Shown here in pieces: positions 4,814-19,205 of a stretch of DNA of 64,000 nucleotides (position 1 is its first letter; each line of letters opens with the position of its first letter). This stretch comes from Alphaproteobacteria bacterium (GTDB lineage: Bacteria > Pseudomonadota > Alphaproteobacteria > Bin65). The position numbers were made by a program, and so were the translations under genes. Location of the stretch: assembly GCA_022819985.1 (NCBI GenBank), contig JAJEGH010000013.1, positions 124,001 through 188,000 of the forward strand, read 5' to 3'. Below the pieces are notes generated by a model, which was not told the origin of the DNA, ran no database searches, and worked only from the letters and a program-made list of their open reading frames with translations.

Positions 4814-5062
4814 CGACCGGCGACGGTCGCTGTTGTCCGGCGTGCGATTTTAACGCCGATCGGCGTCCCAGCTCATTGACAATATCGGGCTCGAGGGGGT
4901 CGAGGTTCCGCGCCGGGCAACGGTCTGTCCCGCCGTTCCGGCCGGCGAGGGGCGCCATTACAAAGCATGATATTTCCTGACATCCCCGAAACCCCGTCCC
5001 CCGCGCCGCTCCGGACGGGCGCAGGCCGGACCCGGATCGGGCGCGGGCCGGTGCCGCCGCCC

Positions 5063-5093
5063 TTGACAAGAAACGATACCGGCCCGCCATACT
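5063..5093 (+). promoter_or_regulatory. Candidate promoter for the NHLP-fusion gene
   Basis: A perfect TTGACA (5063-5068) and CATACT (5088-5093; 4 of 6) lie about 72 bp before the GTG at 5165, with a long 19-bp spacer. The 351-bp gap 4814-5164 holds no other recognisable gene or RNA; the rest is GC-rich. Confidence 0.4.
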
Positions 5094-5164
5094 TCCCGCG
5101 CCTGCATCGATTCCGCTGCCGGGGATTCGCGCCCGACCGGAACCCGCGAGGACGGAGGAGATCA

Positions 5165-6466
5165 GTGGAGAAATCTGTCGACGCGGAAGCGTTCCTCCGG
5201 TCCAGGGCCAGGGAAGACGCCGGTTTCCGCGAACGCCTTCTCGCCAGGCCCAAAGAAACGATCGAGCAGGAATTCGGCGTGACGCTGCCCGCAGAGCACG
5301 AGATTTTCGTGCACGAAGAAACCGACACCGCCACGCATCTGGTCCTTCCGCCGCCCGGCAAGTTCAGCGAAGCCGAACGGGAGGCGGCGAAAACCGGCGC
5401 CGCGTCCCTCGAGTTCCTTCGCAAGACGCTCTACGATCCCGCGCCGCCGCTTCGCCCCTCCGCCCCCCGGCGGACGAAAGCTCCGGGGAGCGCACCGACC
5501 TCCGGGGCGCTGGCGGAAGCGGGGCGGGAAAGCATCCGCCGCGGCCTCGACTTCCTGGAATCCGCCGTCGACGAAAACGGGGCCTGGCACTGCATCCGGT
5601 TCAATACGGCCGACCCGGACATCCCCCGGCATTTCGAAAGGCCTCCCTTCGTCTCGGCCCTGTGCGCGCTTGCTCTGGAAAGTTGCGGCGATGCGCGGGC
5701 CAGGGCGATCTGCACCGCGACAAAGGCCTGGCTGGCCGACACCATGGAATATCCCGGATTGTGGCGCTACTACCGCCACCTTCCCCAGGACCTCGACAGT
5801 ACCGCTCTCTGTTCGCTGGTCCTTGGAACGCACCCGTGGGTTTTTCTGGGCAGGAACGTTCCGCAAATCCTGAAGAATCGAAATGAGGACGGTTGTTTTC
5901 TGACCTGGGTGCTGGCGGACGGCGAACCCGATGTCGTGGCGCCCTTTCGTATCGAAGCCGACCCCGTGGTCAACGCGAATGTCATTGCCTATCTCGGCGA
6001 CCGTCCCGAAACCGGGCAGGCCCAACGATGGCTGGAAGGCCTGATCGCCGAAGACAGACTCGAGGGCTCGTCCAAATGGTATCCCGACACCGTCGCGATC
6101 TACTATGCGGTCGCCCGTGCCCTCGTTCGCGCCCGGCCCGCGCTCGAACGGCTCCGCCCGATGCTGGCGGACCGTATCCTGGGCCTGCGCGACGGCGACG
6201 GAGCATTCGGCAATGTCCTGCAGACCGCTCAGGCGGTGTCGGCGCTCTACGACATCGGGAGCCTCGAAAGAACCGACGCCGGACGCCAGGCGGAAAGGCT
6301 CGTAAGTGCGCAGCATGAAGACGGCAGCTGGCCGGAACTCCTCGCCTTTGGCGATCAGGAGGTAAAGTGGGGCCTCGCAGGACAGATCGGGCACGGCTCC
6401 GAGGCCGTGACTTCTGCGTTTTGCATCGAAGCGCTGGGGCGTCTCGCCGAAACCCTGGAAGCCTGA
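5165..6466 (+). CDS. NHLP leader fused to a terpenoid-cyclase/prenyltransferase (alpha/alpha toroid) domain
   Basis: A 433-aa protein in two parts. Residues 1-82 are a nitrile-hydratase-leader-peptide (NHLP) domain matching the precursor at 7767-8018: by hand, 24 of 48 residues are identical over the ungapped central block (F-R-E-R-L-L-A-R-P-K, then F-G-V-T-L-P, then V-H-E-E, then L-V-L-P-P). A Pro/Ala-rich linker (about 90-115) leads into a squalene-cyclase/prenyltransferase-like helical toroid. The toroid has a QW repeat Q-H-E-D-G-S-W at 383-389, a related D-G-D-G-A-F-G near 343-349, and D-L-D-S-T-A at 209-214, which resembles the class II cyclase acid motif DxDDTA with Ser at the third acidic position. 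At about 330 aa the toroid is half the size of squalene-hopene cyclase and close to protein-prenyltransferase beta subunits. The GTG at 5165 follows GGAGGAG. The product and substrate are unknown. Confidence 0.75.
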   Translation: MEKSVDAEAFLRSRAREDAGFRERLLARPKETIEQEFGVTLPAEHEIFVHEETDTATHLVLPPPGKFSEAEREAAKTGAASLEFLRKTLYDPAPPLRPSAPRRTKAPGSAPTSGALAEAGRESIRRGLDFLESAVDENGAWHCIRFNTADPDIPRHFERPPFVSALCALALESCGDARARAICTATKAWLADTMEYPGLWRYYRHLPQDLDSTALCSLVLGTHPWVFLGRNVPQILKNRNEDGCFLTWVLADGEPDVVAPFRIEADPVVNANVIAYLGDRPETGQAQRWLEGLIAEDRLEGSSKWYPDTVAIYYAVARALVRARPALERLRPMLADRILGLRDGDGAFGNVLQTAQAVSALYDIGSLERTDAGRQAERLVSAQHEDGSWPELLAFGDQEVKWGLAGQIGHGSEAVTSAFCIEALGRLAETLEA

Positions 6467-6505: not shown

Positions 6506-7618
6506 ATGGATATTGACGAGGCAATCACCCTTACCCAGGACCGTCTCGCCGAAGAGGGCGGCACCATGGGCGATTTGCTCGGGCATTTTCGAAACAGGAT
6601 TTCGCCGGTCCTGATCGGCGATTCGGAATGGGCGCGCATCCTCGAGTGCGCCGGCCGGCTTCCGATCGGAATGGGCGCCCTTCCGTTCGGTTTCGAACTG
6701 CCGCTGCACGCCCGCAGGCCGGAGGCGGATTTCGGCGCCTCCCTGGCGAGCGGAACCGGACCGGCGGCGTTTTTCCGGGAGCGCGCGCGGACCGACAAGA
6801 CGGATGAGACGGCGAGAGCGATCGGCAGGCTGTTCCGGCAAATGGAGGCCGAAAATTCGCCTCTGCGGGAAATTGTCGGCCGCAAGCTGATGCTGGAATA
6901 CGACATCGGCTCGGCGCCGAACGGCGCTTCTTCGTTTCCGGGCATGTTTCTCCGGCCCGGCGAACGGCCGATCGTCGGCGCCGGCGGTCAGGCGGGCGAT
7001 GTCGGTACGGTAGTCGATGCGCTCGTTTCCTGCGTAGGCTGGGAAACGAACGATGCCGAACGGGAGAATGTCAAACGGGCATATCTGGCGCAACCCGAAG
7101 ATACGCGCATGGATTCTTTCGGCGTATTTCCATCGCGCTCGCGGGAAATCCGCCTGGCTGTTATGGGCTTCAAATCGCAGGAGGATTTAGGTTCCTATCT
7201 CGAAAATACGGGTTGGCCGGGCCGGATATCGGCCGTCGATTCTGTGATTTCGCGCTTCAGGAAACGCGCGCAGATTATCAGGACGGGGGTTAATATCGAC
7301 GTCGGGGAAGAAGGGTTAGGCCCAACGCTCGGCCTGACGCTCATTGTCAAGCAAAGGTATACGAAGGATTCGCGTTACTGGCTCGACGGGCTGACCGATT
7401 GGGATCCGTTTCTGGACGCGTTGAGCCATGAGGACATCGTCGTTCCGGAAAAACTTGCGGCGCTTGCCGGCTGGGTATCGAAACCGACGCCGCTCTTTGC
7501 GAAATCCGGGCGTTTTGTACTGCTCCGCGGTATTCACCACATCAAGCTGGTGATATCCGGGAACCGGCTTGAGAAAGCCAAAGCCTATGTCTTTATGGTG
7601 CTTTCCGGCGCGGTCTGA
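6506..7618 (+). CDS. Uncharacterised protein, likely partner of the NHLP-fusion toroid protein
   Basis: A 370-aa soluble protein without signal peptide or membrane segment, starting 39 bp after the toroid gene and so probably co-transcribed. I do not recognise a functional domain. Visible features are a F-G-F-E-L-P-L segment near residue 73, W-L-D-G-L-T-D-W-D-P-F-L-D-A-L near 290, and a C-terminal H-H-I-K-L-V-x(9)-K-A-K-A-Y. The last two resemble an uncharacterised family I associate from memory with toroid genes in natural-product loci, as L-S-H-I-K-I-V-Y-x-P-x-x-P-L-E-A-K-A-Y; this cannot be checked here. It could be a tailoring enzyme or a scaffold. Confidence 0.65.
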   Translation: MDIDEAITLTQDRLAEEGGTMGDLLGHFRNRISPVLIGDSEWARILECAGRLPIGMGALPFGFELPLHARRPEADFGASLASGTGPAAFFRERARTDKTDETARAIGRLFRQMEAENSPLREIVGRKLMLEYDIGSAPNGASSFPGMFLRPGERPIVGAGGQAGDVGTVVDALVSCVGWETNDAERENVKRAYLAQPEDTRMDSFGVFPSRSREIRLAVMGFKSQEDLGSYLENTGWPGRISAVDSVISRFRKRAQIIRTGVNIDVGEEGLGPTLGLTLIVKQRYTKDSRYWLDGLTDWDPFLDALSHEDIVVPEKLAALAGWVSKPTPLFAKSGRFVLLRGIHHIKLVISGNRLEKAKAYVFMVLSGAV

Positions 7619-7766: not shown

Positions 7767-8018
7767 TTACCAGCAGCAGCACAGCCCGGCCGAGATAGCC
7801 TCGAGCTGCTCTTCGGTGATGTTCGGATCCGGCGGCAATGCAAGATGTACCGTCTGCATGTCGCTCTCATGGACCTGAATGTTCATCGAATCGGGAATTG
7901 TAATACCCAATTCCGCGCTGATCGTCGTCTTCGGATCTGCGAGCAGCTGTTGCCTGAAATCCGCATCCGTGGCGGACTTCTCAACAATCTGTTGCAGCAT
8001 TTCATCGCCACTTCTCAT
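7767..8018 (-). CDS. NHLP-family RiPP precursor peptide with Cys-Cys-Cys-Trp C-terminus
   Basis: An 83-aa peptide, MRSGDEMLQQIVEKS..., in the NHLP (nitrile hydratase alpha-subunit-like leader) family: F-R-Q-Q-L-L-A-D-P-K, then E-L-G-I-T-I-P, then V-H-E-S, then L-A-L-P-P-D-P-N, then E-E-Q-L-E-A-I-S-A-G. The leader ends with S-A-G, a double-glycine-type site for the C39 exporter at 13819-16029. The remaining core is Leu-Cys-Cys-Cys-Trp, only five residues. The ATG at 8018 is preferred over an upstream in-frame start because AAGGAG sits 7 bp before it. The gene has its own candidate promoter and a strong terminator, as expected for a highly expressed precursor. Modifications are unknown; the neighbouring halogenase homologue and toroid proteins are the obvious candidates. 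Confidence 0.88.
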   Translation of the reverse strand: MRSGDEMLQQIVEKSATDADFRQQLLADPKTTISAELGITIPDSMNIQVHESDMQTVHLALPPDPNITEEQLEAISAGLCCCW

Positions 8019-8064
8019 GGCATCGCTCCTTCGCTCTGCGTGCCATTCCAGCACATGGGCAACG

Positions 8065-8093
8065 ACCGTAACAAGGCCATGTCAATGGGTCAA
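8065..8093 (-). promoter_or_regulatory. Candidate promoter of the NHLP precursor gene
   Basis: On the minus strand TTGACC (8093-8088) is followed after 17 bp by TACGGT (8070-8065), about 47 bp before the ATG. The -10 box is poor (3 of 6). An AT-rich tract at 8105-8143, just upstream, could act as an UP-like element. Confidence 0.3.
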
Positions 8094-8217
8094 TCCCCCG
8101 GCTAATACTACTTTTTTATGGTATCGATATACAATTGTTATGGCACCGGAGGCCTTGTCTCGGCGAGCGGCGGCCGAAAGCTTCGGGCTGAAAAGGCTTT
8201 CGGCCTCGCAGCGCCGC

Positions 8218-10647
8218 TCAGGCTTCCTTCCTCCCGCCCGGAGCGCCGGACCGGGGCGCAGGCGCGGCTTTCCCTTCAGATTCCTTCCGGGCAGACTTCT
8301 TCCGGTCCAGCACCGTCAGCAGCGCCGGCAAGAGCGAAAGGTCGGCAATGAGCGCAAAGGCGATAATCATCGCGGTCAGGACACCGACCTGTGCGGTGGG
8401 AATGAATGGAGAAAACACGAGGATCAAAAAGCCGGCCACCAGCACGGCCGTCGTCGTGAACAGGGCCCGGCCGGCCGTGTCGAAGGTCTGACGCACCGCG
8501 TCTTCGGGCCCCAGGCCGTGTTCGCGCCGCGCCCGGCGGTATTTGGCGAGGAAGTGCACCGTATCGTCCACGACGATGCCGACCGTCATGGCCACCACGA
8601 CGGACAGCGAGAGGCCCACTTGCCCGACCGTCAACCCCCAGACGCCGAAGCCCAGCACAGCGGGAAGCAGATTGGGAACGATGCTGATCAGGCCCAGCCG
8701 CAGCGACCGCAGGGCGAACAGGAGAATCGCGGAAATGGCCAGGAGCACGACCATCGTTCCGACCACCATGGCGCGGATGTTGCGCTGCCCGATATAGGCG
8801 AACAGCGCTGCCGGGCCGGTGCTGTTGACGCCGGCGACATGGGGGGCGTTCTCCTTCAGCCAGGCTTCGGCGCGCGCGTTCAGGGCGAGCAGTTCTTTCG
8901 AATCGAGCGTCTCCGCCGAAACCGACAGGCGCGTGGCGGACCTGGATCTGTCGATCTGGTTGTTCAGGTCCAGGCCCTGCGGAAGCGAAAGCTCGTAGAG
9001 CAGCAGATACTGTGCCGCCAGCTCGCTGCTTTCCGGAATCCGGTAGGCGGCCGGATCGTCGCCGTGCATGCTCTTGTTGAGCTGCCGGAAGGTGTCGGTG
9101 ATGACCGCCACATGGCGTACGGTGGGTTGCTTCCGGTACCATTCCGCGAATTTCGAAACCTCGGTCAGGAAACGGGGATCGGTGACTCCGCCCTCGGCCG
9201 GGGCCTGCAGCGAGTATTCGAGCAGGGTGTTGCCGCTCAGGCGCTCGTCCATGAAGTCCGTATCCTGCCGGAACTCGACGCTCTTATCGAAGAAATGAAC
9301 GAGGACGTCGTTGAGCTCGTTGCGCGGAACGGCCAGGGCCATCGCGACCGCGACCGCCAGCCAACCCCAGATCAGCGCCTTCCTGTAGCGCAGCACGGAA
9401 TCCGCCAGGCGGTTCATCGTGGGTCCGCGGAACCGGCGCTCCTTCGGGGCGCGCATCGGGAGAAGCGAAAGCAGGGCCGGCAGAAAAGTGACGGAGAGAA
9501 TGAAGGAAGCGGCGATACCGAAAGCGACGAAGATACCGAGATGACGGTAGGGCGGCACCTCGGAAAAATTCATGGCCAGGAATCCGAGCGCCGTCGTCAG
9601 GCTCGCCAGAAATACCGGATGCAGGTTGAGCCTGACGGATTCGACGATGGCATCGTGCCTGGAATCCCCGGCCCGCAGGCGCTGCTGCACCGTCACCAGC
9701 AGGTGCACGCAGTTCGCCACGACAATCATGAGCACGATGGTCGGCGCCGGCGATATGGGCGGGGAAAAGGGCAGTCCGATCCAAAAGCCCAAGCCCATCG
9801 ACGCGAGAATGGAAAAGACGACGACCGCCCCGGTCGCCGCCACGCCCGCCCAGCCCCGGATGAGGACGCCGAGGATCAGGGCCATGATCAGAAGACTTGC
9901 CGGCAGGAAGATCATCTGGCTGCCGATCGAGGCCTCCAGGAAGGTCTGGTTGATCATGACCGTCCCGACGATGCGAAGATCGATGCCGGGAAACCGTTCC
10001 TCCGCCTCCGCAGCGGCCGCTCTGGCGAATTCGGCAACTTCGGCCACGGCCTCCAACAGGCCCTCTTCCGGCATTTCCACGGTGACGTTTACGACGCTGA
10101 CATCGCCGTTCCGGGCCAGAATGCTGCCCGCGATGCGCGGGTCGGATAAAGCGATGGCGCGGATTCGCGACCGCGCTTCGGCCTGGCCCAGATCTCGGGG
10201 ATCGACCAGGTTGCGCACATACAGATCGTCGCCGTCGGCGGTCGTGTGCTGAAAATTGGCGAGCGAGTCGACGCGCCTCGAATAGGGTGTCTTCCAGGCT
10301 CTTTTTGTGAGCCATACGGCGGCCGAAAGCGCCTTTTGCGACGTGGCGTCGCCGTCGTCGGGAACGATCAGGAACGCGACGTTGTCGTTTTTCCCGTAGG
10401 TATTCTCCAGCGCTTCGAGCGCCAGAAGCTGCGGATTGTCTTCGTCGAAAAAGATGCGGTAGTTGGCGGAAAATTCGAGCAAAGCCATGCCGCCCGATGC
10501 GCCCGCAACGAAAAGCAGCGCCGCCAGGATGACCGGCCAGCGGGCCGCGAGCACCCGCTGGGCAAACCGCTTTGCGAATTGCTCTCCCGCTATGCCGAGT
10601 TTGTCCACGGGACCCGCGCTACCGATTTCAAACGCCCCCGATTTCAA
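8218..10647 (-). CDS. RND-superfamily (MMPL) efflux transporter
   Basis: An 809-aa inner-membrane protein with the duplicated RND layout: a transmembrane helix near residue 40, a large periplasmic loop (about 65-240), five to six helices, then a second helix and loop (about 430-600) and six more helices. Motifs include F-D-E-D-N-P-Q-L near 68, typical of the MMPL/HpnN-like group, and a charged tail ending G-G-R-K-E-A. Such transporters often pair with a periplasmic LolA-like protein, and one is encoded at 16849-17721. The longest frame starts with TTG at 10647 and no ribosome binding site; a GTG at 10608 is an alternative. The role is probably export of a hydrophobic product or lipid. Confidence 0.85.
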   Translation of the reverse strand: MKSGAFEIGSAGPVDKLGIAGEQFAKRFAQRVLAARWPVILAALLFVAGASGGMALLEFSANYRIFFDEDNPQLLALEALENTYGKNDNVAFLIVPDDGDATSQKALSAAVWLTKRAWKTPYSRRVDSLANFQHTTADGDDLYVRNLVDPRDLGQAEARSRIRAIALSDPRIAGSILARNGDVSVVNVTVEMPEEGLLEAVAEVAEFARAAAAEAEERFPGIDLRIVGTVMINQTFLEASIGSQMIFLPASLLIMALILGVLIRGWAGVAATGAVVVFSILASMGLGFWIGLPFSPPISPAPTIVLMIVVANCVHLLVTVQQRLRAGDSRHDAIVESVRLNLHPVFLASLTTALGFLAMNFSEVPPYRHLGIFVAFGIAASFILSVTFLPALLSLLPMRAPKERRFRGPTMNRLADSVLRYRKALIWGWLAVAVAMALAVPRNELNDVLVHFFDKSVEFRQDTDFMDERLSGNTLLEYSLQAPAEGGVTDPRFLTEVSKFAEWYRKQPTVRHVAVITDTFRQLNKSMHGDDPAAYRIPESSELAAQYLLLYELSLPQGLDLNNQIDRSRSATRLSVSAETLDSKELLALNARAEAWLKENAPHVAGVNSTGPAALFAYIGQRNIRAMVVGTMVVLLAISAILLFALRSLRLGLISIVPNLLPAVLGFGVWGLTVGQVGLSLSVVVAMTVGIVVDDTVHFLAKYRRARREHGLGPEDAVRQTFDTAGRALFTTTAVLVAGFLILVFSPFIPTAQVGVLTAMIIAFALIADLSLLPALLTVLDRKKSARKESEGKAAPAPRSGAPGGRKEA

Positions 10648-10736
10648 GCGGCGCGCCGGGTTTCATTGCAGCGAAACCTTGTGGCCGGGTAGCGAACAGG
10701 CTCATTCGCAGCCGGGAATCCGGCGACGCGGGGAAC

Positions 10737-10766
10737 GGTATGGTCCCCGCCGCAATGCAGTGTCAA
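10737..10766 (-). promoter_or_regulatory. Candidate promoter of the RND transporter gene
   Basis: On the minus strand a perfect TTGACA (10766-10761) is followed after 18 bp by CATACC (10742-10737; 3 of 6), about 90 bp upstream of the TTG start. An imperfect GC hairpin (GCGGGGA at 10728-10734 with TCCCCGC at 10744-10750) overlaps the -10 region. Confidence 0.38.
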
Positions 10767-10876
10767 GGGCCTTGCACAGAGCCTGCGGAACTCACACGCG
10801 AGCAACCCCGGACGGTGCCGGGAAGGGTCGGCCACGGACAGGGATCGGGGTCCCGCAGGCGGCCGGCGCGGCCCGA

Positions 10877-13819
10877 TCAGGCGATCTGCCGCCTGACCAG
10901 TTCGCGGAACACCCCGTCGACCTCCATGAGTTCGCCGAAGGAGCCGCTTTGCACGACTTTTCCGGCCTGCAGCACATAGATGCGGTCGGCCTGCTCCAGC
11001 GTGGACAGGCGGTGGGCGATGACGATCCGGGTGGACGTCAAGGCGGTAAGGTTCCGCATGACCTTCGCCTGGCTTTCGTTATCCAGCCAGTTGGTCGCCT
11101 CGTCGAACAGCACGATTCGCGGGCTGCCGATCACGGAGCGGGCGATGGTGATGCGCTGACTCTCGCCGCCGGACAGGACAGCCCCGCTGGTGCCGACCAT
11201 GGTCATCATGCCCATGGGCATGCCCCTGATCTGGTCTTCGACATCGGCGATCCGGACCGCCCTCCAGACTTCCTCGTTCTCCACGTCCTCGTGGTGACCG
11301 ACCAGATTGTCCCAGAGATCCTGCGGGTGGAGCCCGACCGATTGCGGCACCGCACCGATTTTCCGGCGCACCTGTTTCAGGTTCAGGTGCCTCAGGTCGC
11401 GTCCGTCGTAATACACCGCGCCGGCGGTCGGCCGGTCTATCCCGAGCGCGAGCCGGAACAGGGTGCTCTTGCCGGCGCCGGACTCGCCGGCGATCGCGAC
11501 GAATTCGCCGGCGCGGGCGCGAATCGTGACATCGTCGAGAACCAGCGGACCGTCGGAATCGTAGCGGAAGGAAACGCGGTCGAACAGAATATCGCCGCCC
11601 AGATATTCCACCGGCTCCCCCTCCGACCCGGATTCGGGTATGGCGGCGAGCAGCGGGCGCATCTGGTCGAACGCCGGCAGCATGGCCGCAACGGTGCCGA
11701 AAGACTCGCCGAGCCGCGCGATGGCGGACTGGAAGGCGATAAAGACGGTGTAGACGACGAGAAAATCGCCGACCGGGAGGTTCCGGTCGCCCACCGCAAC
11801 CGCCGCGAAAAGCAACGCCCCGCCGGCAAGAAAGGGGAGCGCGGCGCCGAACGCCCGCGAATGCGCCTCGAGCGCGCCCAGTTCGACCTCCGCGCGTTTC
11901 TGCTCGCGATAGTCCCGCGCCCACATGGCGAAGGCCGATCCTTCGGCGTTTTCGACGCGCAGCTTGCCGATGCCGCCGACGATCTGGAACAGCCGGCCGG
12001 TTACGCGGCGCGCGGCGCCGATCATTCGCCCGTAAGGCGAAATCTGGCGCAGCCCGAGTAACACGGTAATCAGCAGGGAAACCACGCTGAAAGCCAGCGC
12101 GACGACCCCCAGAGCGGTATCGTAGAAGAAGATGACGCCGAAAACCGGGAGCAGGAAAATGACCGACAGCAGGCTGTCGGCAACGACCCCCTGCAGGCCG
12201 TCGCGCAGATTCTGGAACGTCATTCCCGACATCGCCAGATCGCCGGACGGCCGGCGGTGCAGAACGCTCGGCGGAAGGCGCATGAGGCGGTCCCAGAAGG
12301 CAGCTTCGACCCGCGACGCCGAGCGGCCTTCGAGGCGCATCATCGCCGTGCTCTGAAGCAGGTGAAGCAGGGCGCCGAGCAGCCCGAACCCCGCCACCGC
12401 CGCCGCCACGGCATAGAGCGTTCCGGCGCTTCCGCCCGCTACGATGTGATTCGCAACGATCCCGAGCGCGAGGGCCGGCAGCAGCTTGATCAGTCCGCCC
12501 GGAAGCCCGGCGATCGCAAGCCGCGCCAGGTCGGCGGCCGATCCGTGCAGGGCGATCCCCAGCAGGTCCGCCGGTTTCACGTTCCCCGACGGCAATGGCC
12601 GATAGAACATCCAGGCTTCCTGGCGCAACGCGCCGGCGCGCTCCGCCGTGATCCGGACACGGCGCTTGCTGACCGGGTCGAATTCCCGGTAGCGCCCGAA
12701 CCGTCCCGGCAGCAGCGCTACCGGCCGGCCGTCCCCGGCCCGGAATGCCAGCATGGCGTTGCTGTCGCCGCGCCACCAGTCGTCCTCGGCCGTGAAGCGC
12801 ACGCGCCGGGCGCGCACGCCCGACGCATCGAGAATGTCGACGAGGCCGACCGGAGAATCGGAAGGTCCCGAGCGCACCGGAAATTTGAAATCGATTCCTT
12901 CGCGGCGGCCGATGACCCGCAGGGCATCCGCCAGCGCCGTATCCTCGACATCGGCGCCCCGGTCGATCGGCAGGTCGTAGATATTGAAGAGCCGCTGCCG
13001 CGCGGCTTTTTCGGCCGTCCGGCGGCTGGTTGTCCGCGCGCGTTCGAGATTTGCCTCGTCGACCACGGCCAGCTGGCGGTTGAGGCGTTCCAGCGTGAAG
13101 GCCACCGCGTGAAACGTGGCGAGCGCCGGCAGCAGCCTGCCTTGCTGCGCCAGCGTTTCGGTCGATTTGCCCGAAAGCGTCGTCTCGTCGAACAGGGTGA
13201 GCCAGCTTGTCCGCGTCAGCGGTATCTCCGGTTCGTGCAGGCCGCCTGCCTCGGCAAGTTCCGCCTGGTCGACAATGTCCATGCACAGGCTTGCGCCGCG
13301 CGGCGGTTCGGATACCCAGACCACACCGCGCCGTACCGACAGGGTGCACGGAGCCAGGGTTTGCGTCTGGCCGGGTTCGGCCAGTGCGGTCGGACGCGGA
13401 AGGCGGGTTGCGAAGCGCGAAAGCGTGTCGGTAATGGCGGTCAGCCAGGTATCGGTCTGTTCCGCGAGTTCCGCCGGATCGACCTCGGACAGCAGGGAGG
13501 CCGGCAGGCGTTTCAAAAGGGTGCCGGGCGATCCCTTGGCAATCAGGCTGAGCGTCGTGTCTTCCTCGTTGTTGCGCCGGTCAGGGGCGACGCCCGGCAG
13601 CAGCCGGCCCGCTTCGCGCCGCAACAAATGCTGCGGCGCAGCCTGCTCCACCCCGTCCTTGAATTCGACCAGGAACAGATTGACGGCGCCCCGGTCGATG
13701 AACCAGACGCTGTCCGGATCGTCGAGCGCGACCGGCAGGTTGCCGGCGCAGGGCACGGATGTGCCGGCGCGAACGGCGAGTTCGTCTATCGGGGTGTATT
13801 CGGACCCGGTGTCCGGCAT
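10877..13819 (-). CDS. NHLP-system ABC exporter, permease/ATPase subunit
   Basis: A 980-aa protein in the NHPM (NHLP export) two-ABC arrangement. The first ~400 residues are the family-specific cytoplasmic extension, followed by six membrane helices (about 430-700) and an ATPase domain. The ATPase has Walker A G-E-S-G-A-G-K-S-T, signature L-S-G-G-E-S-Q-R and Walker B R-I-V-L-F-D-E-A-T. It has no C39 peptidase domain; that lies on the partner. Its ATG shares one base with the partner's stop (TGATG), so the two are translationally coupled. With the adaptor at 16031 it should export the mature NHLP peptide. Confidence 0.88.
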   Translation of the reverse strand: MPDTGSEYTPIDELAVRAGTSVPCAGNLPVALDDPDSVWFIDRGAVNLFLVEFKDGVEQAAPQHLLRREAGRLLPGVAPDRRNNEEDTTLSLIAKGSPGTLLKRLPASLLSEVDPAELAEQTDTWLTAITDTLSRFATRLPRPTALAEPGQTQTLAPCTLSVRRGVVWVSEPPRGASLCMDIVDQAELAEAGGLHEPEIPLTRTSWLTLFDETTLSGKSTETLAQQGRLLPALATFHAVAFTLERLNRQLAVVDEANLERARTTSRRTAEKAARQRLFNIYDLPIDRGADVEDTALADALRVIGRREGIDFKFPVRSGPSDSPVGLVDILDASGVRARRVRFTAEDDWWRGDSNAMLAFRAGDGRPVALLPGRFGRYREFDPVSKRRVRITAERAGALRQEAWMFYRPLPSGNVKPADLLGIALHGSAADLARLAIAGLPGGLIKLLPALALGIVANHIVAGGSAGTLYAVAAAVAGFGLLGALLHLLQSTAMMRLEGRSASRVEAAFWDRLMRLPPSVLHRRPSGDLAMSGMTFQNLRDGLQGVVADSLLSVIFLLPVFGVIFFYDTALGVVALAFSVVSLLITVLLGLRQISPYGRMIGAARRVTGRLFQIVGGIGKLRVENAEGSAFAMWARDYREQKRAEVELGALEAHSRAFGAALPFLAGGALLFAAVAVGDRNLPVGDFLVVYTVFIAFQSAIARLGESFGTVAAMLPAFDQMRPLLAAIPESGSEGEPVEYLGGDILFDRVSFRYDSDGPLVLDDVTIRARAGEFVAIAGESGAGKSTLFRLALGIDRPTAGAVYYDGRDLRHLNLKQVRRKIGAVPQSVGLHPQDLWDNLVGHHEDVENEEVWRAVRIADVEDQIRGMPMGMMTMVGTSGAVLSGGESQRITIARSVIGSPRIVLFDEATNWLDNESQAKVMRNLTALTSTRIVIAHRLSTLEQADRIYVLQAGKVVQSGSFGELMEVDGVFRELVRRQIA

Positions 13820-16029
13820 CAGCCCGACCTGACCAGCTTTGAATACGGACCGTCCCGGTCGGCGATCAGCGTGTCGTGGGTGCCGCGCTGCACTTCGGCG
13901 CCGTTGTCGAGCACGATGATTTCGTCGCAATCCCGGACGGTGCTGAGCCGATGCGCCACGATCAAACAGGTGACCCCGCGGCGGCGCAGGGCCTCATCGA
14001 CATACTCCTCCGTCGCCGCATCGAGGGCGCTGGTCGCCTCGTCCAGAATGAGCACGGTCGGATTGCCCACCAGCGCACGGGCGATTTCCAGCCGTTGCCG
14101 CTGGCCGCCGCTGAAATTCGCCCCGCCCTCCTCGACATGCGTCGCATATCCCTGCGGCCTGAGCAGGATTTCGTCATGGATGCAGGCATCCCGCGCCGCG
14201 GCGAAGATGGCTTCGTCCGGAACGGCCGGGTTCCACAGGGTAATGTTGTCGCGCAGCGACGCGAAGAAGAGCACGCTCTCCTGAGCCACCATGGAAACGG
14301 ACCGCCGCAGCACTTCCTCGGGAATTTGGTCCCGCAGATGGCCATCGAACAGGATTTCGCCCGACCAGGGCCGATAGACCCCGGAAACCAGATGCGCCAG
14401 GGTCGACTTGCCGGAACCGCTGGGACCGACCACGGCAACCCGCTGCCCCGGCCTGATGACGAGGTTGAAGTCCTTTATCAGGGGCGGCCGGCTCCTGTTG
14501 AAACCGAAGGTGACGTCCCGCAATTCGAGCTGGCCGGCAAGCTGGAGCCGGCCCTTGAACGTGGGAATCGACTCCGCTTCCGGATTCCGGCGGGCGAAAA
14601 CGGGATCTTCGTCGGCTTTGGAGATGTCCTCGAGCCGCTGCAAATCCGTTTCGAGCGCCTGGCGCTTGTCGGTGAACTCCAGAAAGCGCCCGATCGGCGC
14701 CAGAAACATCTCCGCGAGGATATAGAAGGCGACGAGCGTTCCGAGGGTCATGTCCCCGGCCATGACCAGGCTTCCCCCGACGGCCAGGATCGCCGCGCTC
14801 CGAAGCGCCGCGATCAGGCCCGGCAGCGCGGTATTGACGGAGACCGGCTTGGAATAAAGCTGCCGCGCCCGCAATTCGCGTGCCTGCTGACCGCTCCAGC
14901 GCGAAAAGAACCGGTCGTCCGATCCCGTCATGCGCAGGTTGTCCGCATGACTCAACATCTGCATGCCGAAGCCGATCAGCAATCCCTGTTCGCGCCGCAT
15001 CGCCTGGCTTCGAACGGCCCGGAAGGCGTTGAGAAAGCGGGCCAGCATGCCGTGCAGAAGGGCCAGCAGCAGCACAATCAGGGTGAGCAGGATATCGTAG
15101 ACCAGCATCGCGACGAGCAGCACGACGCTCATCGCCATATCGATAAGGAGCACGAGAAACCGGTCCGTCAGATTCTTCGCGATCCTGTCGATGGACGAGA
15201 CCCGGTCGGTCAGATCGCCGACCAGCCGGTGCTCGAAAAACTCGATCGGCAACCGCAGCAGCCGCGACACGCTCCGGTTGTAGCCGCTCACCGAAATCCG
15301 GACAGCCAGGCGCTTCAGGAACCGGTGCTTGAGCACAAACAGGACGTATACCAGGACCCCGCCGCCGAGCAGGGCCGCCACCAGCCCGCCCCAGGGCGCG
15401 CGGTTTTCCAGAACGCCGTCCACGAAAATGTGAAGAGACGCGGGGACGATAAGACTCAGCACCGTCAGCATGAGCCCGCAGGCAATCACCCCGGTAAGCA
15501 CACTCCACGTTCCGGCGAGCAGGGCGCTTAATTGCTCGAACAGGCTCTTCCGCTCACCGCCGGGTTCGAAATCGGGACCGCGCTTGAAGCACAGCGCAAT
15601 GCCGCTGTACCCCTTGTCGAACTCTTCGGCGGAGAGCTTTCGTCTGCCGGTGGACGGATCGTTGAGAAAGAAATTCCGGCTGTCGTAGCCTTCGAGAACG
15701 ACGAAATGGCTGAATTGCCAGAACAGGATCAGGGGAAGCTGCAGCTTTTTCAGTCGATCGGTGCGCATGCTGAGCCCGTTGCATTCCAGACCGTAATGTC
15801 TGGAGGCGCGCACGATACTCGCAGCGCTGCTGCCGTCCCGGCTCACCTCGCATTTCTCGCGCAATTCGGTAAGCGGCACCCAGCGGCCGAAGTAAGCCAG
15901 TATGCTGCCGAGACATGCGGCGCCGCATTCGGACGCATGCATCTGCAACGTTATCGGCGTAACAACCTTTTGTTCCGGGAAGTCCGTTGCAGCCTTATCG
16001 CTCGTCCCTTTGGCGGCGCCCTGCGCCAT
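13819..16029 (-). CDS. NHLP-system peptidase/permease/ATPase (C39 exporter)
   Basis: A 736-aa protein combining a C39 leader peptidase, a six-helix membrane domain and an ATPase. The peptidase triad is C35 (S-E-C-G-A-A-C-L), H108 (F-S-H-F-V-V-L-E-G) and D124 (N-D-P-S-T-G). The ATPase has G-P-S-G-S-G-K-S-T, F-S-G-G-Q-R-Q-R and L-I-L-D-E-A-T-S. C39 domains cut after double-glycine-type sites, matching the S-A-G end of the precursor leader. The ATG at 16029 follows the adaptor stop by one base; a longer frame upstream overlaps the adaptor and is not C39-like. Confidence 0.9.
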   Translation of the reverse strand: MAQGAAKGTSDKAATDFPEQKVVTPITLQMHASECGAACLGSILAYFGRWVPLTELREKCEVSRDGSSAASIVRASRHYGLECNGLSMRTDRLKKLQLPLILFWQFSHFVVLEGYDSRNFFLNDPSTGRRKLSAEEFDKGYSGIALCFKRGPDFEPGGERKSLFEQLSALLAGTWSVLTGVIACGLMLTVLSLIVPASLHIFVDGVLENRAPWGGLVAALLGGGVLVYVLFVLKHRFLKRLAVRISVSGYNRSVSRLLRLPIEFFEHRLVGDLTDRVSSIDRIAKNLTDRFLVLLIDMAMSVVLLVAMLVYDILLTLIVLLLALLHGMLARFLNAFRAVRSQAMRREQGLLIGFGMQMLSHADNLRMTGSDDRFFSRWSGQQARELRARQLYSKPVSVNTALPGLIAALRSAAILAVGGSLVMAGDMTLGTLVAFYILAEMFLAPIGRFLEFTDKRQALETDLQRLEDISKADEDPVFARRNPEAESIPTFKGRLQLAGQLELRDVTFGFNRSRPPLIKDFNLVIRPGQRVAVVGPSGSGKSTLAHLVSGVYRPWSGEILFDGHLRDQIPEEVLRRSVSMVAQESVLFFASLRDNITLWNPAVPDEAIFAAARDACIHDEILLRPQGYATHVEEGGANFSGGQRQRLEIARALVGNPTVLILDEATSALDAATEEYVDEALRRRGVTCLIVAHRLSTVRDCDEIIVLDNGAEVQRGTHDTLIADRDGPYSKLVRSG

Positions 16030-16030
16030 A

Positions 16031-16573
16031 TTACGGCCGCCTTGTCCGCAAGAGCGTAACGGGAGACTGTCTGCCGAGTTCGACCGTAATCCGGCATTTC
16101 CTGCCCGCAAGGGACGCGATATCGAGGCCTTTCCCGAGCGCGACAACGATCCGGTGCGCCGATACCGGCTCGAACGCCGCCAGCCCCCCGGACGAGGGGA
16201 TAGCGGAAATTGCCGCGATCTCTCCGTCGAACGTTTCCGCGTCTCCGTCTGCCGTCTCCAGCTCTATCGCTGCCGGCATTCCGGCCCCGATCTGCAGCGC
16301 GGCACTTCTCTCGATCCAGACGACCGCCCGCACGGACCCTGCGCCATCGGGCAGGCTTTGGGCAGGCTGCGCCAGGACGCCTTCCAGCGTCGCGGTGCGG
16401 GCTACGCTGCCGAGGAAGAGCCATGCCGCGAGGATAACCGATAACAGAGCGATGCCGACGACTAGCAGACGCTCCCGCGGTGTGGAAATTGTCAGCAGCC
16501 TGTCGAGTTGTTCGCGTTCTTCTTTTGCTTCGGCGACAGTATTATGAAACGAGCTAAATGGATTGTTGAACAC
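16031..16573 (-). CDS. NHLP-system HlyD-like secretion adaptor
   Basis: About 180 aa: a short cytoplasmic segment with T-V-A-E-A-K-E-E-R-E-Q-L-D-R-L-L, then one membrane helix (V-V-G-I-A-L-L-S-V-I-L-A-A-W-L-F), then a small barrel-sandwich periplasmic domain. The long coiled-coil hairpin of classical HlyD proteins is missing, as in NHLP secretion adaptors. The GTG at 16573 is chosen over a TTG at 16660 because AGAAGG lies upstream and the TTG region is not adaptor-like; the start remains uncertain. It is the first gene of the export operon. Confidence 0.72.
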   Translation of the reverse strand: MFNNPFSSFHNTVAEAKEEREQLDRLLTISTPRERLLVVGIALLSVILAAWLFLGSVARTATLEGVLAQPAQSLPDGAGSVRAVVWIERSAALQIGAGMPAAIELETADGDAETFDGEIAAISAIPSSGGLAAFEPVSAHRIVVALGKGLDIASLAGRKCRITVELGRQSPVTLLRTRRP

Positions 16574-16649
16574 GACCGCACGAAGCCTTCTTATAAAGAT
16601 CGGACAAGGACACGGAATTTCTCGGCCGGCTTGAGCGAAGATTGGCGGA

Positions 16650-16680
16650 ATGATATGCAATTATGCCGGGGGAAGGTCAA
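16650..16680 (-). promoter_or_regulatory. Candidate promoter of the NHLP export operon
   Basis: On the minus strand TTGACC (16680-16675) is followed after 19 bp by TATCAT (16655-16650; 5 of 6). It lies in the gap between the adaptor gene and the divergent LolA-like gene and would favour the GTG start at 16573 over the TTG at 16660. Confidence 0.35.
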
Positions 16681-16848
16681 GTATTCCAGAAGCCGGAGCA
16701 CCTTGTCGGGTATGCTTCGGCCGGGGCTTGCGGCGGGTTTTTGCAGACCCGCCGTCCCGGCCGGGCGCCTTTTCCGGCGCGTCCCGGACTTCTCCTTCCC
16801 CGGCGAACCGGGATACAATGCACGATCTTCGACACGGAACCTGCGCCG

Positions 16849-17721
16849 ATGCCCTCTGACCGCGAAATCGCCGGGAAACGTCTGACCGGCCAAGGCAGCA
16901 CGAAGGGGTTTCCAGGCCCGCGGGACGCGTTGTTCGGCGTTCTGTTTCTGGCGCTCGCGTGCCTCTGCCTGCCGATTGCCCCTGCCCTCGCCCAGAGCGA
17001 AACGCCGGAGGACAAGGGCCTGAGAATTGCGCGCGAAACCAGCGCCCGCAACGACGGTTTCGGAGATTTTACCGCCGGATTGACGATGGTGCTGCGCGAC
17101 CGGCACGGCCGGGAAAGCGTCCGCAAGATGCGCTTCAAGGTGCTGGAGGTGCCGGGGGACGGCGACAAGAGCCTGTTCGTTTTCGATCAGCCGCCGGCCG
17201 TGCGGGGAACCGCCCTCCTGACTCACGGCCACATCAACACCCAGGACGACCAGTGGCTGTTTCTGCCGGCCCTGAAAAGGGTAAAGCGCATCAACGCTTC
17301 GCGGCGCTCAGGGTCGTTCATGGGCAGCGAGTTTTCCTATGAGGACATGAGCACTCCGGAGGTGGAGGAATACACCTACAAATATCTTCGCGACGAGCCC
17401 TGCGGCAAACTCGTGTGCACCGTGATCGAGCAGGTTCCCCTGGATGAGGAATCCGGATACAGCCGCAAGGTCCTTTGGCAGGACACGGGCGAACTTCGAA
17501 CCTGGAAGATGGAGCTTTACGACCGGAAGGGTTCGCACCTCAAGACGCTCACTTTTGCAAACTACCGGCAGTATCTGGACCGGTACTGGCGGGCAACGGA
17601 ACAGACGATGGAGAACCATCTGACCGGTGCGAGCACGGTACTCAAATGGACGGGGTTCCGGTTTCGCACCGATCTGGACCACAGCGAGTTCACCCAGACG
17701 GCGCTCCGGCGCGTACGCTGA
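16849..17721 (+). CDS. Outer-membrane lipoprotein-sorting (LolA-like) protein
   Basis: A 290-aa periplasmic protein. A basic N-terminus is followed by a hydrophobic stretch (A-L-F-G-V-L-F-L-A-L-A-C-L-C-L-P) and an A-L-A-Q cleavage site near residue 48. The mature part has features of the LolA-like proteins that accompany MMPL transporters: F-D-Q-P-P-A-V-R-G-T-A-L-L-T-H near 120, L-P-A-L-K-R-V-K-R-I near 140, and G-S-E-F-S-Y-E-D-M near 160. It likely receives a hydrophobic cargo from the RND transporter at 8218-10647. The gene stands between the export operon and the halogenase homologue; the ATG at 16849 gives the best signal peptide. Confidence 0.82.
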   Translation: MPSDREIAGKRLTGQGSTKGFPGPRDALFGVLFLALACLCLPIAPALAQSETPEDKGLRIARETSARNDGFGDFTAGLTMVLRDRHGRESVRKMRFKVLEVPGDGDKSLFVFDQPPAVRGTALLTHGHINTQDDQWLFLPALKRVKRINASRRSGSFMGSEFSYEDMSTPEVEEYTYKYLRDEPCGKLVCTVIEQVPLDEESGYSRKVLWQDTGELRTWKMELYDRKGSHLKTLTFANYRQYLDRYWRATEQTMENHLTGASTVLKWTGFRFRTDLDHSEFTQTALRRVR

Positions 17722-17930: not shown

Positions 17931-19205
17931 GTGATACTGCCGGGCGCAAAATCGTTGCGGAGGATCGCGGTCGTCGGGCGGGGAACCGCCGGGTCCCTGG
18001 CAGCCGCCAGCGCAGCGAAGCTTCTGCCCGGCGACGACCTCGAACTGCACCACATCTACGATTCGCGCATCCCGGTCATCGGGGTGGGCGAAGGCAGTTG
18101 GCCGAGCCTGGTCCAGGAATTGCACAAGCTGACGGACCTGCCCCACGAAACCGTCCAGCAGCGCCTGAAAGGAACGCGCAAATACGGCGTCGCCTTCGAG
18201 GGATGGGGCCGGCGCAACCGGGACTTCACCCACTTCTTCACGCCGCAGCAGGTGTCCTACGCCTACCATCTGTCCGCCGACCTCCTGGCGGAGCTGCTGC
18301 ACGAAAGCACGCGCGCGCGCCATATCGACGCCGAAGTGCTCGATATCTCCAGGGTGGAGGGCGGCGCGCAGGTGGAGTTCAGGGACCTGCCGCCGGAACG
18401 CTACGACCTAGTCTTCGATGCGCGCGGGTTTCCGAAGGAACTCCATCCCGAGCAGCACATCGACATTTCTTTCATCCCCACCAATACCGCCGTCATCCGC
18501 CGCTGTCCGGCGGTTATCGGGGAGGACGGGGACGGGCCGGTCCTGCAGCATACCTACACCCGCGCCGTGGCGCGTCCGCACGGCTGGATCTTCGTCATTC
18601 CGCTGACGGTGCACACGTCCTACGGCTACATCTTCAACCGCGATATGTCCGACCTTGCCGACGTCGAAACGGACTTCAGCGAATTCCTCGAAGCCGACGG
18701 CGTATCGGAATTCGAGCAGCGCGCCGTCATTCCATTCCCCAATTTCGTGCACCGCCGGATCTTCGACGGCGCGGTGGCCCGGGTCGGCAATGCAGCGGCC
18801 TTCATGGAGCCCCTCGAGGCGACGGCGATCGTATCCGCCCAGTTGCAGATCGGCATGATTCTCCACATGCGTCTCAACCGGCCGGTGGAGAATCTCGAGC
18901 GCGACGCGCCGACGGTAAACCGGTTTCTCATCGACACCATACTCCGCTACGGCCTGTTCGTCGGCTGGCACTATTCCTGCGGCTCCCGGTACGACAGCAG
19001 GTTCTGGCGCCACGCCCGCGAGCGGGTCTGGCCCCGGCACCGCAAGGCCGCCGCCCCCGAGGCGGTGGATTGCGCCGCGCTCGCCAGGTTCGACGAAATG
19101 ATCGAACTGCTGAACCGGCCGGTCATCGACCAGGAGGACTGGAACCGGATGTGCGCCGTGCCCCTCACCAGCTACGCCCAGATGTCCCAGAATCTCGGCT
19201 GCTAG
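17931..19205 (+). CDS. Flavin-dependent tryptophan-halogenase family protein
   Basis: A 424-aa cytoplasmic flavoprotein. The FAD-binding motif is G16-R-G-T-A-G21, followed by the family's G-V-G-E-G-S-W-P (51-58; usual form G-E-A-T-x-P). K84 (G-T-R-K-Y-G-V-A-F-E-G-W) aligns with the catalytic Lys79 of RebH, and E293 or E296 in F-M-E-P-L-E-A-T matches the conserved Glu segment. The usual W-x-W-x-I-P is W-I-F-V-I-P (219-224), with the second Trp changed to Phe. It is shorter than RebH/PrnA (about 530 aa), mainly at the C-terminus. The GTG at 17931 is the first plausible start. It may halogenate the Trp of the neighbouring LCCCW core (inference); a free small-molecule substrate or a non-halogenating role are alternatives. 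Confidence 0.78.
   Translation: MILPGAKSLRRIAVVGRGTAGSLAAASAAKLLPGDDLELHHIYDSRIPVIGVGEGSWPSLVQELHKLTDLPHETVQQRLKGTRKYGVAFEGWGRRNRDFTHFFTPQQVSYAYHLSADLLAELLHESTRARHIDAEVLDISRVEGGAQVEFRDLPPERYDLVFDARGFPKELHPEQHIDISFIPTNTAVIRRCPAVIGEDGDGPVLQHTYTRAVARPHGWIFVIPLTVHTSYGYIFNRDMSDLADVETDFSEFLEADGVSEFEQRAVIPFPNFVHRRIFDGAVARVGNAAAFMEPLEATAIVSAQLQIGMILHMRLNRPVENLERDAPTVNRFLIDTILRYGLFVGWHYSCGSRYDSRFWRHARERVWPRHRKAAAPEAVDCAALARFDEMIELLNRPVIDQEDWNRMCAVPLTSYAQMSQNLGC

Follow-up and report, generated by a model that had tools for sequence, protein, structure and literature searches.

What is the substrate of the flavin-dependent halogenase encoded at 17931-19205 (+) of the window, i.e., the stretch of 64,000 nucleotides of an alphaproteobacterial contig analyzed here? 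An earlier sequence-only reading described this gene as a tryptophan-halogenase homologue next to the gene of a peptide precursor ending in tryptophan and predicted that the terminal residue of the precursor core is halogenated. The two genes do belong to one locus, but they are separated by approximately 10 kb, and genes for a LolA-like protein, an HlyD-like protein, NHLM ABC transporters, and an RND transporter are situated in between. The other side of the precursor is occupied by genes for a 370-aa protein, named U370 here, and a fusion of an NHLP leader with a squalene-hopene-cyclase-like domain.

The halogenase ORF starts with a GTG codon, and its 424-aa product matches the Pfam family Trp_halogenase (PF04820; E = 1.2e-45, 156.7 bits at a cut-off of 21). 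Its relatives in PDB identified by phmmer are tryptophan halogenases, MibH (5uao) being the second-best match (E = 8.9e-25). The GxGxxG motif reads G16-R-G18-T-A-G21. The catalytic lysine K84 and the E-P-L-E segment (E293-P294-L295-E296), both previously described as retained, are present in the window enzyme and invariant in 81/81 homologues; the surrounding segment MEPLEAT is intact, with EPLEAT likewise invariant. Residues 104-110 are T104-PQQVS-Y110, of which P105 and Y110 do not vary in the 81 homologues, while position 102 is occupied by Phe, with Tyr found there in 69/81. A structural model of the enzyme produced by AF2 with a shallow alignment had a pLDDT of 44.9 and was set aside. Since orthologues with 76–92% identity are encoded in dozens of genomes, a chance origin of the observed gene is excluded.

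The precursor gene (7767-8018, −) encodes an 83-aa proteusin (NHLP) precursor, with a score of 71.2 bits against the leader_NHLP model TIGR03793 (cut-off 50.9) and a C-terminus reading EEQLEAISAG-LCCCW. Translated from the ATG codon at 8018, which is preceded by an AAGGAG box, it contains a single Trp, and that is the last residue of the core, as had been claimed; a longer frame from the GTG codon at 8054 would bring in a second one.

Precisely this core is known from srp clusters found in the microbiomes of marine sponges, which encode the precursor SrpE (core LCCCW), the YcaO enzyme SrpC, and the halogenase SrpI (PMC10286304, PMC10858898). SrpC converts the three core Cys of SrpE to thiazolines, and the natural substrate of SrpI is SrpE already cyclised in this way. 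SrpI was demonstrated experimentally to be an obligate Trp-6 brominase, modifying indole C6 of the C-terminal Trp and never chlorinating it; the leader must be attached in cis, free Trp is not a substrate, and SrpE is brominated without any prenyltransferase (PMC10286304, PMC10858898). Its catalytic lysine is Lys84, the K84A mutant being inactive. The leader segment NLTEEQL (residues 66-72; LXXXXL at −12 to −7) docks on SrpI residues 104-110, a loop for which the mutant P105G/Q106A/Q107G/V108A/S109G was modelled, and self-bromination at Tyr102 and Tyr110 was reported as a side reaction that does not define the enzyme (PMC10286304, PMC10858898).

The window system coincides with srp at the level of single residues. 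The precursor core (residues 79-83; 7770-7784, −) is identical to that of SrpE, with W83 as the predicted bromination site and C80-C82 as predicted thiazolines, and K84, PQQVS at 105-109, and Y110 of the halogenase have the same numbering in SrpI. The leader segment N(L/I)TEEQL is found at 66-72 in both precursors, a YcaO gene is present in the genome, and the hosts are sponge-associated. The differences are F at position 102 of the enzyme, the YcaO gene being unlinked from the halogenase and precursor locus, and Ile at position 67 of the leader, where NITEEQL (7803-7823, −) stands as the counterpart of the SrpI-binding NLTEEQL. The LXXXXL motif thus opens with Ile, as in 39/42 homologues; judged by sequence this change is conservative, and we count the motif as present. 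Agreement with the published positions, as distinct from a full-sequence alignment, leaves little doubt that the halogenase is an orthologue of SrpI. The broader assignment, by which it belongs to a cluster for the sponge-derived RiPP proteusin srp and acts as a leader-dependent C-terminal Trp brominase, is very probably correct. Hence, halogenation of the C-terminal Trp of the LCCCW peptide was a correct prediction of a reaction that is already known, having been shown for SrpI acting on SrpE (PMC10286304, PMC10858898).

MibH from NAI-107 biosynthesis, the precedent cited initially, also belongs to PF04820 and halogenates a Trp residue of a RiPP. It differs in having 541 aa, in chlorinating, and in acting only after leader removal, on the finished lanthipeptide. 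As an example of a flavin halogenase that modifies a peptide Trp it remains valid, but SrpI is the closer relative and, being leader-dependent, behaves in the opposite way. The window enzyme could by analogy be a peptidyl Trp chlorinase of the released core, given the common superfamily and the rank of 5uao among the PDB matches; yet the characterized enzyme with the same core and docking loop depends on the leader and does not chlorinate, so that we consider this reading very unlikely and dropped it in favor of the leader-dependent brominase of the identical core. For the same reason, of the two halogens expected at first, bromine agrees with SrpI and chlorine does not, and the halide used by the window enzyme is most likely bromide. 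Families of lanthionine synthases had no match in a Pfam and NCBIfam scan of nine proteins of the locus. MppI from the mpp cluster of Moorena producens (PMC11791876) is another flavin-dependent peptidyl Trp brominase, modifies a long-leader RiPP precursor, and is accompanied by a prenyltransferase gene; its distinctions are a Nif11-like leader, a lanthipeptide macrocycle, bromination at indole-5 of the internal Trp80, and K73 as the catalytic residue (PMC11791876).

The phylogenetic distribution of the halogenase follows that of the LCCCW precursor. In the genus, the enzyme is encoded in 5/7 genomes (80–91% identity to that of the window), and all five have an LCCCW precursor near it on the same contig. 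One halogenase-free genome of the genus, G004, encodes the export proteins, RND, and YcaO, along with a related precursor that ends in LCCCGI. Of 385 genomes covered in the class, seven encode the halogenase (E <= 1e-30), and exactly these seven have the LCCCW precursor (at least 86% identity); the next-closest precursors, ending in LCCCF (G293), LCCCGI (G004), and RCCC (G295), all come from genomes without the halogenase. That these CCC-type relatives have neither the enzyme nor the terminal Trp agrees with the prediction for an enzyme dedicated to the C-terminal Trp. A terminal Trp as such is not specific for the halogenase: this rule holds for CCC-type cores only, and clusters with a distant U370 in G269 and G002 (core end GGDSW) have a terminal Trp without a local halogenase. 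A second LCCCW precursor of G005 (L085:7494-7760; G005:C171) is encoded on another contig with no local srp enzymes and is possibly modified in trans.

A scan of GTDB with one genome per species yielded 193 related stretches, of which the best 80 (76–90% identity) were taken. These come from MAGs labelled as Alpha- and Gammaproteobacteria, Acidobacteria, Gemmatimonadetes, Latescibacterota, Nitrospinota, and others, and include one locus from a Spongia bin. All 41 complete precursors in these 80 loci end in LCCCW, and for 33 of the remaining 39 loci LCCCW was located either in a cut stretch or at another site of the same genome, giving 74/80 in total. In the other six of the 80, a close precursor was not found; these are fragmentary MAGs in which the contig bearing the halogenase is 3 to 36 kb long. 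Since the cluster is inherited, probably moving as a unit, the counts are not independent events, and the co-occurrence in part reflects this common inheritance.

The same set of loci bears on the possibility that the halogenase modifies a free small molecule, either Trp or a terpenoid or indole metabolite, and lies near RiPP genes by chance or serves LolA/RND export. In some loci it does adjoin a LolA-like or RND gene, and five contigs bear the halogenase without any other srp gene, but the genomes of all five encode LCCCW precursors elsewhere. Among the best 80 of the 193 loci, LolA is within 2.5 kb of the halogenase in 31/80 and RND in 7/80; hence, these genes are not constant neighbors, and the LolA/RND pair was rejected as true partners of the halogenase. 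The arrangement that would speak against a peptide substrate, a halogenase retained beside the LolA-like and RND genes where the genome encodes no precursor, was accordingly not observed, LCCCW accompanying the enzyme far more often than either. The enzyme itself also argues against free Trp. It shares the fold and motifs of lysine-dependent FAD halogenases with PrnA, RebH, and Thal, but is approximately 100 aa shorter and has no counterpart of canonical residues ~100 to ~155. In phmmer alignments with free-Trp halogenases, ~45–55 residues are skipped after window position 104, and the alignments end ~100 residues short of the C-termini of the latter. Instead of the WxWxIP motif and the full-length substrate-binding parts of enzymes of ~510–550 aa, the window protein has W219-I-F221-V-I-P224 (WIFVIP), with F221 found in 81/81 homologues. 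Together with the failure of SrpI to brominate free Trp (PMC10286304, PMC10858898), the truncation and the co-occurrence led us to reject this explanation, which we regard as extremely improbable.

The genes between the precursor and the halogenase encode export functions. These are an MMPL/HpnN-like RND transporter (8218-10647, −; PF03176, TIGR03480), an NHLM export ABC permease/ATPase (ABC2; 10877-13930, −; TIGR03797, 669.7 bits), an NHLM export ABC protein with a C39 leader peptidase (ABC1; 13819-16146, −; TIGR03796, 843.1 bits, and PF03412), a short HlyD-like membrane fusion protein (16031-16660, −), and a LolA-like outer-membrane lipoprotein-sorting protein (16663-17721, +; PF17131, 200.5 bits) that only some srp loci encode. 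The HlyD-like protein has a weak match to TIGR03794 and a conserved position; it is ~200 aa long versus 421 positions of the NHLM_micro_HlyD model, and its relatives retain the short length.

The YcaO cyclodehydratase of the window genome (G000:C50:62152-63168; TIGR03604 and TIGR03882) is encoded outside the window on another contig, and hence the srp cluster is split in this genome. That contig is 104 kb long and carries the YcaO gene and a desaturase/GlnE-like fusion in its interior; the genes at 8039-10375 (−) and 10463-12964 (−) of the stretch L268 from the same contig are the YcaO cyclodehydratase and the fatty-acid-desaturase/GlnE-like fusion of the pathway. The YcaO gene was found in 9/9 tested genomes with the halogenase; G001, G003, and G005 have it in the vicinity of the halogenase, the window genome and G002 on a different contig.

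U370 (6506-7618, +) has no significant match by sequence in Pfam, NCBIfam, or PDB, including a PDB profile search, and a search of plasmids found no U370. Its AF2 model (pLDDT 88.7, pTM 0.89) has five strand pairs with helices between them. The matches listed for this confident model by Foldseek/VIA are aromatic prenyltransferases with Z of 12.7–16.7. Those acting on indole stand at the top of the list, namely MpnD (Z of 16.7 with an rmsd of 4.7 across 304 residues), CymD, and 6-DMATS. The model and the structure comparison predict for U370 the ten-stranded alpha-beta-beta-alpha barrel, i.e., the ABBA/PT-barrel fold, of an aromatic prenyltransferase. In many srp loci U370 adjoins the YcaO gene, and it is also present where the core has no terminal Trp; therefore, its target would have to be, or at least to include, something besides that residue. 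U370 is also encoded in NHLP clusters without YcaO. One such cluster, L117 (G269), contains a tandem of 11 NHLP precursors (L117:7355-12848) around a distant U370, with mostly different cores that all end in Trp; it has NHLM export and cyclase-like genes and neither a halogenase nor YcaO. In L185 and L243, a second cluster beside the srp locus comprises a precursor ending in WCCCGQ or WCCCGN, its own RND, and a second U370 (51% identity).

That U370 is the main enzyme acting on the C-terminal Trp and the flavoenzyme modifies another site, e.g., a prenyl chain, would fit the predicted indole-prenyltransferase fold and the 11 Trp-ended precursors of the halogenase-free cluster in G269, but is hardly credible given that U370 also accompanies LCCCGI, LCCCF, and RCCC cores while the halogenase tracks LCCCW, and that SrpI brominates this very Trp with no prenyltransferase required (PMC10286304, PMC10858898).

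The neighbor of U370 (4967-6466, +) combines an NHLP leader domain (TIGR03793, 46.8 bits) with a squalene-hopene-cyclase-like alpha/alpha-toroid domain (weak PF13243) and is conserved in srp loci. It has DLDSTA in place of the cyclase motif DxDD, and it is unusual for a leader peptide to serve as an enzyme domain. Taken with the modelled fold of U370, this protein suggests a terpenoid part in the srp product. More specifically, U370 may prenylate the core and the leader-fused cyclase-like protein may act on or with the prenyl group, so that the product would be a RiPP both brominated and prenylated (meroterpenoid); we put this forward tentatively, as a possibility with somewhat the weaker odds. 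The srp literature compared here mentions no prenyltransferase; the gene may already be noted in the original cluster paper, reportedly Nguyen et al. in JACS 2021.

Returning to the SrpI-like brominase, from the gene identity, motifs, conservation, and co-occurrence observed in the window system we infer that its copy acts like SrpI and that the steps follow the srp order. The YcaO enzyme encoded on the second contig would turn the three core Cys of the SrpE orthologue into thiazolines, whose formation most likely precedes halogenation. Next, N66-ITEEQ-L72, the LXXXXL-type leader helix, would dock on the loop 104-110, and FADH2, O2, and bromide would give a hypobromous species, relayed via K84, that brominates W83, the C-terminal residue, at indole C6. 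Finally, the NHLM transporter would presumably cut after Ala-Gly with its C39 domain and export the core.

A halogenase prediction backed by experiment thus anchors the whole locus to a characterized pathway. Relatives that have no enzyme also have no terminal Trp, which constitutes a clean natural control, and the enzyme and its target residue covary across MAGs of many phyla. If the proposed roles of U370 and the leader-fused cyclase-like protein are true, the cryptic srp end product would be more than a brominated tris-thiazoline pentapeptide, and a prenyl-type modification may be tested via a named gene.
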